Assembly (NCBI GenBank): GCA_937951625.1
Contig: CALFBP010000004.1
Coordinates: 62,001 to 126,000, forward strand
Source of the DNA: an uncultured Thermoguttaceae bacterium
GTDB taxonomy: Bacteria; Planctomycetota; Planctomycetia; Pirellulales; Thermoguttaceae
Reading direction: 5' to 3'
DNA length: 64,000 nucleotides
Shown piece after piece: positions 23,998-30,695 of the stretch; position 1 is the first letter of the stretch; the number at the start of each line of letters is the position of its first letter. The notes under the pieces were generated by a model that saw only the letters and a list, made by a program, of their open reading frames with translations, was not told where the DNA came from and made no database searches. A program made the position numbers and the translations under genes.

Positions 23998-24444
23998 GAA
24001 GCGGCTGCCGCCACGTGAGACGACGGCCGCTTAGGTTGTGTCGTTGAGTGGGAGCGCTCTTGAGAGCAAGCCGATGGTCCAGCAAGCCGCCGGCATTTCG
24101 CATTGCCAGCTTCTGGCTGTACACGGCCTGTTGTTTTCAGGAGCGTTGAATACATGTGGCCAAGCATTCGCCCGTTAGTATCGGTTAGCTAAGCGCATTG
24201 CTGCGCGTACACATCCGACCTATCGACCTGGTAGTCTTCCAGGGGGCTTTCGAGCTTAAGCTCTTACGAGACCTCATCTTGGAGAGGGCTTCACGCTTAT
24301 ATGCTTTCAGCGTTTATCCTTTCCGCACATAGCTACCCAGCCGTGCCGCTAGCGCGACAACTGGAACACCAGAGGTGCGTCCTTCTAAATCCTCTCGTAC
24401 TAAAGAAGAACCTCCTCAAGTCTCGTGCGCCCACAGCAGATAGG

Positions 24445-25126: not shown

Positions 25127-25885
<759 letters not shown>

Positions 25886-26456: not shown

Positions 26457-27810
26457 TCGGCGGACAGGATTCCCACCTGTCTTATCGTTACTCATTCCGG
26501 CATAATCACCTGTGGACCCCTCCATCGCTCCTTACGGTACGACTCGTGTCTGATCCACAGCGCTCTCCTACCGATGCGGTTGCCCGCATCCCGCTGCTTC
26601 GGCGCCATGCTTACTCCCGTTCATTATCGGCGCAGAGTTGCTCGGCCAGTAAGCTGTTACGCACTTTTTAAATGGTGGCTGCTTCTAAGCCAACATCCTG
26701 GCTGTCTCAGCAACTCAACTTCCTTAGTGACTAAGCATGGCTTCGGGGCCTTAGCAGACGATCAGGGTTGTTTCCCTTTTGACCGCGAAGCTTATCCCTC
26801 GCGGACTGACTCCCGAGATAGTCGCAACGGTATTCGGAGTTTGGTTCAGCAGGGTAGCCGGGAAAGGCCCCCAAGCCGATTCAGTATCTCTACCCCCGTC
26901 GCGTAGTGGCTCGAGGCTAGCCCTAAAGCTATTTCGGAGAGAACCAGCTATCTCTGCGTTTGATGAGACTTTCACTCCTCCCCACAAGTCATCCCCTCGG
27001 TTTTCAACCCAAGTGGGTTCGGTCCTCCACGCGGTATAACCCGCGCTTCAACCTGCTCATGGGTAGTTCACGCAGTTTCGGGTCTACCACCGACGACTTT
27101 GTCGCCCTATTCAGACTCGGTTTCCCTATGGCTCCGGCCCGGAAGGCCTTAACCAGCCGCCGACGATAACTCGCCGGATCATTATGCAAAAGGCACGCCG
27201 TCACACATTGCTCGCCGGGTTGCCCCGGCAAGCCATAGTGCTCCGACCGCTTGTAGGCACATGGTTTCAGGTTCTGTTCCCTCCCCTAGCAGGGGTTCTT
27301 TTCATCTTTCAGTCGCCCTACTGGTTCACTATCGGTCGTCAGGGAGTATTTAGCCTTACGGGATGGTCCCCGTGGATTCAGTCGGGATTCCACGTGGCCC
27401 GACCTACTCAGGTACCTTCCGGTTGGCCATGCCGCTTTCGCGTACGGGACTGTCACCCTCTGTGGTCCGCCTTTCCAGTACGGTTCTGCTAGCAGATGGC
27501 TTTCCCATGTGGAAGGCCCTACAACCCCGCAGGGAAAATCCCCGCGGTTTGGGCTGTTTCCGTTTCGCTCGCCGCTACTCGGGAAATCGAGGTTTCTTTC
27601 TTTTCCTGCGGGTACTGAGATGTTTCAGTTCTCCGCGTTCGCGACACACGCCTATGGATTCAGCGTGTGACAGTTCGGGAATCCCGGGATCAAAGCTCGT
27701 TTGACAGCTACCCCAGGCTTATCGCAGTCTTCCACGCCCTTCGAAGCCTCCTGACGCCAAGACATCCCCCATGCGCCCTTAGTAGCTTGGCCACATGAAT
27801 CCAGCGCTCC

Positions 27811-28159
27811 TCCAACCGCCTTTCCCCTGGAAAGCACAGACGGAAAGCCGGATTCACTTCAAGCTACCGGATCGCAGAACCGGCCAACGGCCGACCCCCG
27901 ATCCTCGCAACGATTTCTCCAACCTCCAGACAACTCGGCCTTGGTCGCAGATTGCAGCACATTCAGGTCCCGCTCTCTGCTGCCTCGACCGCGCCATCCT
28001 TCGGTCTAGCCTATGCGCTCGTGCCGCTCCCAATGGCCTGCTAGTAGACCATCCGGATCGGCACCATCTTTTCGTGAGATGCCACTCAAGACACAACCAA
28101 ATTGCCAAAGATCAATCCAACGCGCAAGCGACCTGTCGCCAAGCCCTTACGCGCCGCTG
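27811..28159 (-). other. Remainder of the 23S leader
   Basis: About 350 nt between the structured leader element and the 23S 5' end. It includes a hairpin near 27870-27910 (GGATCG/CGATCC) and the 5' half of the 23S processing stem at its downstream end. No tRNA, 16S or protein gene is seen on either strand. Confidence 0.5.
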
Positions 28160-28336
28160 CCAAATAGACAGGGGTCGGATTCTTTCGTACCTTCTCGGCG
28201 TAGGCAACCCTTTCGGATTGCTTTGACGACCCCGAAAGGTCGCCCTACATCGAAACGGACCAGAGAACCCGTCCCCTGTCTATCCGCTGGAACCTTTCAC
28301 TCCGCTCTGTTCGGAGCCACATCATCCCAGCGGGAA
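28160..28336 (-). ncRNA. Structured leader RNA or independent small RNA upstream of 23S, unidentified
   Basis: Read on the minus strand, the predicted start of the TTGACA/TATATT promoter (about 28335) is followed at once by hairpin 28333-28284 (CCGCTGG/CCAGCGG, with an inner CTCCG/CGGAG). Next is a closing stem UAGACAGGGG (28282-28273) with CCCCUGUCUA (28174-28165), extended by 3 bp past one mismatch. Inside sits a compact three-way junction: GUAG/CUAC (28248-28245 with 28203-28200), hairpin A at 28244-28225, AAA, and hairpin B at 28221-28204 (GCAAUCC-GAAA-GGGUUGC). It does not resemble RNase P, tmRNA, SRP, 6S or any riboswitch I know. It may be a processed 23S leader or a separate RNA; no terminator is seen after it. 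Confidence 0.45.
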
Positions 28337-28341
28337 AACCG

Positions 28342-28370
28342 AATATATCAGTCGGCCTTTTCCTTGTCAA
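28342..28370 (-). promoter_or_regulatory. Promoter P2 of the 23S-5S operon
   Basis: On the minus strand TTGACA (28370-28365), a 17-nt spacer and TATATT (28347-28342): a near-consensus sigma-70 promoter. An A/T-rich inverted repeat (TTCGGAAAA/TTTTCCGAA, about 28384-28412) lies just upstream. It could be an UP-like element or could end transcripts coming from P1. Confidence 0.7.
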
Positions 28371-28476
28371 AGGTCAAACGACTCTTCGGAAAAAATTTTT
28401 TCGCTTTTCCGAACCCTTGACCCGACATGTACTTGCGGACCAACTGGCGGGATCAGTGATTCTGAACCCACTGTGG

Positions 28477-28504
28477 ATTATAGCGGAGTTCCATCGACCG
28501 TCAA
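28477..28504 (-). promoter_or_regulatory. Promoter P1 of the 23S-5S operon
   Basis: On the minus strand TTGACG (28504-28499), a 16-nt spacer and a perfect TATAAT (28482-28477), with a T/A-rich run upstream. It lies about 130 bp upstream of P2, so the operon appears to have tandem promoters, as rRNA operons often do. Confidence 0.72.
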
Positions 28505-28841
28505 CCCGGTCAAAAAAATTTTGTTGCGATTTCGTGAGCCGCATTAACCATGACGAAACTTCCTGAGAGGGGATTCATGTAACCATATAGATCTATCTTT
28601 GCGGTCGCGTCTCGGTGATTGCTGAAAGCCGTTATCAACAAGGCTCTTCGCATGGCGAGATCGACCGTACCCCGCGTTTCGCCGATTACGTTTTCGCGGC
28701 AAACAGCCCGGCCACAATCGCCCATCACCCGACGCTCGGCGTTGTTCCATTCCCTGAACTCAAAGCCAATTCAAGCGGCGGATGGATAAGGTCTCTCCCA
28801 GCCTGGCCGATTGCGTCGAGCCGCGCGGCGTTGAACGAGGG
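28505..28841. other. Spacer between rRNA promoters and the permease gene
   Basis: No gene, repeat or RNA motif seen, apart from A/T-rich sequence directly upstream of P1. Confidence 0.4.
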
Positions 28842-30695
28842 CTACTCGCCTGCCGTGGTGCGACCCGTGGCCACGTCGAACTCGTAGATCGCCGGTACGA
28901 GCATGGCGGCCGTCGTGAAGCCATACGAGGCGGCGATTACCAAGAAAACGCCGAGCGTCTGGTTGAGAAATAGGCTGGTAATGGCGTAGAAAGTGGCGAA
29001 TGGGCAGAGGAAAGATGCCAAGCCGATCGCCGTGGAGGGGTTCCGCGCGCCGAGGGCAACATAAAGCCCGACTCCGCCCCCCACCATGAAGGCCAGAAAT
29101 GGCTGCAACTGGGCCTCGAACGATCCGCTGAACACGATCATCATCCACATACAAGTGGCCACGCCTAAAAACAGGAAGAACACGGTGCCGAGGCTGGTGG
29201 CGATAGCGGTCCGGGAATTGGCATAATTCATTCCCGCGTGAACTCCCAGCATGGCCACGAAGGCATCGAGAACCGCCAGTCCTCCCAGCATGTAAATCAG
29301 ATTTTCCAGACTGAGGGCCTTGATCCACCAGAGGTAGCCGCACAAAAACATCGGCAGCAAAACCATTTCCTTGGTGTTGTACAACACGCCGCCGAGCTTG
29401 CCGTAGACGATTTCTTTCGGCGTAAGATCGCTGACCAGCAGCAAATCCAACGCCCTCGCGTCGCGTTCGCTGGTGAGCGAAGTTACGGCCTGGGCGTTGA
29501 TCAGGGCCAGACTCATGAGAAACACGGGGGCAAGGATGCTGGCAGCCGAGGCGCGGGTAATGGGTTGCCCACGGGAAGCCTGCCACCAAAGGCTTCCTGC
29601 GGCCAAACCAAAAAGCAACAGATAGGCCAAGCGGATGGCGAGCATCTTGCGACCATAGGCCCAAGTCCGCATTTCCCGCCAGATCACGGGATTGTCCCAG
29701 ACGGGTCGGCTCTTCGTGATCTGCTGGGCGCGCGAGGCATTGCTCCCCCCGGCCGCCCCACCGCCCGCAGCAGCAACTAAAGGCCCCTGGGCGGCCTGCT
29801 GCTTTTCCTGAGCCAGGTCGTATTCCGCTCCCCAAATGCTGGCCCGACGCCAAGTCTCGTCCTCGCGTCGGAAGGTCTGGGCATGTCGCGAGGGGTTCCA
29901 ATATCGAACCAGCGCGATGGCCGATCCGTTGAGCACAACCGTGAGGACGACCGACACGACGATAAACCCATGGACCGGCGTGCCGAGCAACCCCAACGCC
30001 GGATTTGCGTCGATATAAGGTCGAGTGGCCTCGATGACCGCTTCCCAGGGACTAAGCATGGCTGCCCAAATGTCGCAGGACAATCCCGCCCAAGACTCGC
30101 CAAAAAATCCTGCGGCAAGCATCCTGCCGGCCGCCAGCCAAAGCACCAACACAAGCAACGTTGCGGCCAGGGTCTGGTACGTCTTCTCGCGCCACAGCGC
30201 AATCGTGGAGCCAAGGCTACCGCAAACGAGGACCGCGGCCACCGTCACGGCATACACCCGGCCAATTTGGCTCAACGAAACCCCACCGAATAGCAACGAG
30301 AGCATGAACACTGGCAGCCCAGTGGCCAACAGCATGAAGACGTGGAGCAAGCTTGCCAGCAGCTTGCCCAAGACCAATTCGCTGTTGGTGAGCTTTGTCA
30401 ACAACAACAGCACGAGTGTTTGCCGGTCTTTCTCTTGTGCAACGGCGCTGGCCGCCAAGAGGGCCGAGAAGAACGAGGCCACGGCCAATTGGAGGGGTGC
30501 GAGGAGCTGAAACAGACTCATCCCAAATCGGGCCAAGTCGCCAATGTCCCCGACCAACTGCGTCCCCGTCAGGACCAGCCAGGCCGTGCTCATCAAGACC
30601 AGGAGGGCCAAACCATAGGCGACTCGGGCGACGTAAGTCTTTGTCCGTCGGGGGGAAAGAACTAACTCCCGAGTAAAAACCGGTCCGATGAGCAT
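28842..30695 (-). CDS. ABC-2-type transporter permease (double unit)
   Basis: 617 residues made of two similar halves, each beginning with a GPVFTRELVLSPRRTKTY- or NPVIWREMRTWAYGRKML-like amphipathic entry and then about six transmembrane segments. Both halves contain the ABC-2 signature pattern: EKDRQTLVLLLLTKLTNSELVLGK in the first and ERDARALDLLLVSDLTPKEIVYGK in the second. A Gln/Ala/Gly-rich cytoplasmic linker (about 310-340) joins them. No ATP-binding subunit is adjacent in the window, so its partner must lie elsewhere. No clear ribosome site precedes ATG 30695. Cargo unknown. Confidence 0.85.
   Translation of the reverse strand: MLIGPVFTRELVLSPRRTKTYVARVAYGLALLVLMSTAWLVLTGTQLVGDIGDLARFGMSLFQLLAPLQLAVASFFSALLAASAVAQEKDRQTLVLLLLTKLTNSELVLGKLLASLLHVFMLLATGLPVFMLSLLFGGVSLSQIGRVYAVTVAAVLVCGSLGSTIALWREKTYQTLAATLLVLVLWLAAGRMLAAGFFGESWAGLSCDIWAAMLSPWEAVIEATRPYIDANPALGLLGTPVHGFIVVSVVLTVVLNGSAIALVRYWNPSRHAQTFRREDETWRRASIWGAEYDLAQEKQQAAQGPLVAAAGGGAAGGSNASRAQQITKSRPVWDNPVIWREMRTWAYGRKMLAIRLAYLLLFGLAAGSLWWQASRGQPITRASAASILAPVFLMSLALINAQAVTSLTSERDARALDLLLVSDLTPKEIVYGKLGGVLYNTKEMVLLPMFLCGYLWWIKALSLENLIYMLGGLAVLDAFVAMLGVHAGMNYANSRTAIATSLGTVFFLFLGVATCMWMMIVFSGSFEAQLQPFLAFMVGGGVGLYVALGARNPSTAIGLASFLCPFATFYAITSLFLNQTLGVFLVIAASYGFTTAAMLVPAIYEFDVATGRTTAGE

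Follow-up and report, generated by a model that had tools for sequence, protein, structure and literature searches.

The leaders of rrn operons carry boxB, boxA and boxC between the promoter and the rRNA. The role of boxB in these operons is puzzling, and the covarying leader helices found in relatives of E. coli belong to the 16S leader (PMC10250234). The Rhodopirellula-1 motif is a candidate structured RNA of planctomycetes, listed with no Rfam accession and reported from Proteobacteria too (PMC2864571). How separate 16S and 23S operons stay balanced is not clear. Here we analysed a stretch of 64,000 nucleotides from an uncultured Thermoguttaceae bacterium of the order Pirellulales (the window, whose numbering is used throughout), in which a long structured element lies at the start of the 23S leader. 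Searches of the open literature gave no description of this element.

The 23S gene of the window (27792-24156, minus strand) is followed by a 5S gene (23995-23888). The 16S gene is on another contig (G000:C25:8115-9645, L073) and has a promoter, a short hairpin and a boxA of its own; the rRNA operons are thus unlinked. Separately, the 23S gene carries a group I intron (Rfam match, 25138-25847, minus strand), whose open reading frame (25721-25170, minus strand) looks like a LAGLIDADG-type homing endonuclease. Upstream of the 23S gene, the promoters and the parts of the element are arranged as follows.

28477-28504, minus strand: promoter-like site P1, TTGACG-16-TATAAT (consensus scan, 11/12).
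28342-28370, minus strand: promoter-like site P2, TTGACA-17-TATATT (consensus scan, 11/12), with the transcript expected to start near 28335.
28284-28333, minus strand: 5'-terminal hairpin, CCGCUGG...CCAGCGG (fold).
28273-28286, minus strand: 5' arm of the conserved long stem, CGGAUAGACAGGGG (covariation in alignments A1 and A2).
28184-28272, minus strand: variable upper hairpin with the three-way junction and the GAAA arm (alignment, 19 relatives).
28161-28174, minus strand: 3' arm of the long stem, CCCCUGUCUAUUUG, more strongly conserved than any other strand (alignments and covariation).
28157-28171, minus strand: tail hairpin, CUGUC-UAUUU-GGCAG, which excludes the base of the long stem (fully paired in 47/51 leaders).

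Two promoter-like sites were observed, with 0.3 expected from shuffles. P2 is the promoter proposed in the first-pass annotation, and the consensus scan recovered it at 28370-28342; relatives have a promoter at the equivalent relative position. P1 lies about 130 nt upstream of P2 and is probably an additional source of transcripts. The leader from 28336 to 28160 (minus strand) was predicted to fold at -97.8 kcal/mol, compared with -59.7 +/- 4.3 for its shuffles (z = -8.9, 0/200). Much of the architecture first described for this RNA reappeared in the predicted fold, namely the hairpin at the 5' end, the three-way junction, whose unpaired bases are AAA, and the GAAA tetraloop. The closing stem, AUAGACAGGGG/CCCCUGUCUAU, is perfect, as had been stated, and has 11 pairs here plus G-U extensions, but it does not close the three-way junction directly: a helix of 8 bp, together with an A.A mismatch and some small internal loops, is predicted between the two. 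The proposed 170-nt extent, 28336-28160, does fold; however, the end of the conserved unit is at 28157, with the tail. This tail hairpin and the adjacent boxB/boxA-type site downstream of the element were both absent from the first-pass annotation. The 5' hairpin was seen by eye in many relatives, where its z-score support is weak. In many 23S transcripts of the order, a 5'-terminal hairpin, UUUCCCAC...GUGGGA, apparently forms the start and immediately follows the -10 box.

The earlier statement that the RNA matches no known family held up against Rfam 15, which had no match in the leader at the gathering score or at E <= 1; at relaxed threshold, 23S alone matched. Taken together, the comparative data support a genuinely structured RNA in the 23S leader, outside the families of Rfam 15. 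The identity of the element is well supported, and its function we infer.

The conservation of the element was analysed across Pirellulales. A search with the whole element as DNA in 60 relatives recovered only the element itself, and a covariance model was needed because the sequence diverges too fast for DNA search. In relatives, the arm GACAGGGG is found again, about 300 nt ahead of 23S. Leaders from 50 members of the host family and 54 from the remainder of the order were compared, and the element was found at the same place, with the 23S promoter on one side and the rrn-type boxA on the other, in at least 13 Pirellulales families. In 19 host-family members this hairpin lies between promoter and boxA; it is usually about 66 nt long, whereas the three-way-junction insertion adds about 60 nt to that of the window. 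As judged from the alignment, the three-way junction and GAAA arm are a local insertion specific to the window genome, and the basal stem is conserved.

Covariation across relatives had been proposed as a check when the element was first noticed, and compensatory changes are indeed present. The host-family alignment, built without structure, showed double-sided changes in 18/23 stem pairs, and 88.3% of its cells were paired versus 31-50% when slid (0/500 shuffles). In the order alignment (39 sequences, 13 families), double-sided changes were found in 19/21 stem pairs and 85.2% of cells were paired versus 32-50% when slid (0/500 shuffles); in this alignment the CCYCUG strand, picked out by eye, was the anchor for the 3' arms, some of the 5' arms were placed manually, and sequence boundaries were partly drawn by eye. 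Covariance model R1 (host family) matched 18/119 host-family genomes and also two further families, there too in 23S leaders; at E < 0.001 all of its matches were 23S leaders or their own complement. Model R2 (order) matched 18/397 genomes of the class, all of them Pirellulales, and at E < 0.001 only 23S leaders. Two genomes on which R2 had not been trained (G182 and G188) matched about 450 nt before 23S. A phylum-wide model search with strict filters gave no match outside Pirellulales members, and a sequence pattern run on a collection of 84,980 species gave 11 matches, all in planctomycete records and most labelled Pirellulales or its families. Weak model matches outside 23S leaders (L099, L109-L114) were set aside as chance, with boxA and 23S absent nearby. 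Among the leaders compared, several genera have just a short hairpin before boxA and nothing of the element, which they evidently can do without. Some genera have a different or strongly diverged hairpin at its place. Such a long hairpin was seen in L163 and L181 of the large family f16, and may represent the element in diverged form.

The base of the long stem has a second potential partner. The 3' strand of the stem, with the consensus CCYCUGUCNAY, is common to two helices, in that its CUGUC can also pair with GRCAG 3-8 nt downstream. Anchors for this comparison were taken from the 3' arm because an unanchored automatic search for stem plus tail gave excess chance matches. All five tail pairs were complete in 47 of the 51 leaders taken for the test, from which leaders without a visible CCYCUG strand, possibly holding diverged forms, had been excluded. 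When the CUGUC segments were dealt among the sequences, 35.1 +/- 1.9 leaders were fully paired and 0/5000 reached 47; with the downstream segment shuffled, 6.1 were. A test with one random sequence for each of the 13 families was added because relatedness inflates shuffle tests, and it gave a mean of 12.2 versus 8.1 shuffled (median p 0.005). The tail variants CUGCC/GGCAG, CCGUC/GACGG and CUACC/GGUAG occur in different families. Where the fourth base of CUGUC is C, its partner is G in 16/16 cases and never A; this base is mismatched in the long stem in 25/39 sequences, and the covariation there therefore belongs to the tail hairpin. The tail signal is clear at order level, not from the host-family alignment alone. 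No good tail pairing was found in L035, L159 and L175, and in part in L027. At the level of covariation, the leader thus has two mutually exclusive helices, both conserved and compensated, as expected of a two-state RNA. In the window the long stem is favoured over the tail fold by a computed 12 kcal/mol, and in relatives by about 0-12; the few negative gaps come for the most part from leaders with a predicted fold other than the long stem. A DNA-level operator at the CTGTC...GACAG inverted repeat is disfavoured by the spacer, which varies from 3 to 8 bases, and by covariation of RNA type, including G-U.

The features downstream of the element are these.

28121-28154, minus strand: boxB-like hairpin, CGCGUAAG...CUUGCGCG, just before boxA (fold).
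28094-28113, minus strand: boxA-like antitermination sequence, GATCTTTGGCAATTTGGTTG (conserved in nearly all leaders).
28077-28085, minus strand: boxC-like GTGGCATCT (conserved position after boxA; assigned by resemblance only).
27785-27810, minus strand: 5' strand of the 23S leader-trailer stalk, which pairs with 24165-24140 over about 26 bp.
24140-24165, minus strand: 3' strand of the 23S leader-trailer stalk, pairing with 27810-27785.

As in an rrn antitermination leader, a boxA sequence, TCTTTGGCAA, is present at 28111-28102, and the 50 nt preceding boxA, with a mean z of -2.3 over 89 leaders, have the short hairpin. The boxA-like sequence lies 50 nt past the element, and boxA and boxC-like motifs follow the element in nearly all leaders. 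Also, boxA is present in the window genome's own unlinked 16S leader. In the 16S leaders of four sampled genomes the element was absent, and the short hairpin and boxA were present. Between boxC and 23S, most host-family leaders have a further conserved stretch, ATCGTTRC ... GTAGC around a variable hairpin (27914-27863, minus strand, in the window).

The element had been placed more than 350 nt before 23S, too far for ordinary processing. The distance is 368 nt to the start of the 23S match at 27792, and the stalk found directly beside 23S agrees with that view. The element as a leader-trailer processing stalk was rejected, since its duplex with the trailer (-108.9) did not differ from those with shuffled trailers (-107.7 +/- 7.1); this calculation overpairs long strands, so that we relied only on the comparison with shuffles and on the near-perfect stalk that is visible. 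No intrinsic terminator (G+C-rich stem plus T run) was found in 27700-28900, and a terminator or attenuator reading was rejected for want of a T run.

On balance, we consider it somewhat probable that the element is a cis-acting module in the leader of a stand-alone 23S-5S operon, ahead of the antitermination site, which would form first the long stem and then, after cleavage or protein binding, the tail hairpin. The module would sit between the first transcribed hairpin of the promoter and the boxB/boxA/boxC-type site. The long stem would zip up first as the RNA leaves RNA polymerase, and its base would be opened later, most likely by a double-strand cut of the RNase III type, or by a protein. 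The freed 3' strand could then refold into the tail hairpin, a short hairpin that would stack next to that of boxB and to boxA, where it would insulate or cap both the antitermination site and the 5' end newly made on pre-23S. Because the tail fold is 12 kcal/mol worse in the window, cleavage or a protein would be needed, and this large gap argues for assisted refolding rather than free thermal equilibrium. Control or maturation specific to 23S is plausible since the operons are separate and the sampled 16S leaders are without the element; the element may control the making or trimming of 23S rRNA. On the other hand, the genera without the element and the leaders without good tail pairing count against this explanation.

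The main rival is a regulatory switch, and a passive spacer is the next. In the former, a ligand, ribosomal protein or assembly factor would bind one fold and set 23S transcription or maturation, balancing the unlinked 16S. The rRNA leader itself would then be a conformational switch, toggling folds across the order to set 23S output or maturation independently of 16S, an idea that we regard as somewhat unlikely. Two covarying, mutually exclusive helices immediately ahead of an antitermination site, and missing from the sampled 16S leaders, would suit it well. However, no terminator-like stem with a T run is nearby, a conserved unpaired pocket resembling a binding site was not found, the tail fold is far weaker in several species, and many genera have lost the element. 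If this switch is true, the balancing of 16S and 23S subunits in such bacteria becomes directly testable.

Doubtful, and more so than the switch, is a purely structural spacer or an enlarged boxB-like hairpin, whose stem would insulate the leader or aid the antitermination complex and whose tail would be incidental or a folding intermediate. The boxB place is already taken by a separate short hairpin, the tail covariation exceeds chance, and the 3' strand is conserved in sequence, all of which speak against a spacer that is otherwise in keeping with the position before boxA, with an upper hairpin that varies freely, and with the genera where a short hairpin before boxA is all that is kept. Moreover, the 16S leaders of E. 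coli tolerate deletion of boxB with little effect (PMC10250234).

An independent gene for a small RNA of about 170 nt, upstream of 23S by happenstance, is very improbable: a promoter of its own and a compact stable fold speak for it, but there is no terminator before 23S, boxA follows within 60 nt, and the element is always ahead of 23S. A mobile palindrome of the REP/RAYT or MITE type landed in the leader, for which the apparent resemblance of the palindromic GACAGGGGACGG arms to REP arms is a lead and nothing further, is refuted by copy number and fixed position and has next to no chance, since the element is single copy (5 matches of the arm vs 11 for the reversed control in the window genome), has one fixed place shared by at least 13 families, and is matched by the model only in 23S leaders.

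What hairpins upstream of boxA do in rRNA operons is unsettled, and these results bear on that question; a conserved leader with two folds, so far seen only with 23S, offers a concrete lead on the balance of separate operons. The Rhodopirellula-1 motif, likewise a candidate structured RNA of planctomycetes, was set beside the element by description only (PMC2864571). The mutually exclusive helices with one common strand resemble terminator/antiterminator pairs and riboswitch expression platforms; unlike riboswitch or attenuator platforms, the element has no U-tract terminator, coding gene, known ligand pocket or Rfam match. It is also similar to hA/hB and the leader-trailer helix of E. coli pre-16S (PMC10250234) in that these are variable, covarying leader hairpins, dispensable in some clades. 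However, hA/hB belong to the 16S leader, whereas the element precedes boxA in a 23S leader and forms no part of the leader-trailer stalk. The closest likeness in position is to the rrn boxB-boxA-boxC leader, with the same place directly behind the promoter and ahead of the rRNA, a boxA-like UCUUUGRCAAU, a preceding hairpin and, following it, a GUGGCAUCU that is boxC-like by resemblance. In contrast to that set, the long stem and the competing tail are extra, lie upstream of the boxB-like hairpin, and were seen only in 23S leaders of Pirellulales. The element lies within the rrn antitermination leader and outside the classical boxB/A/C set.
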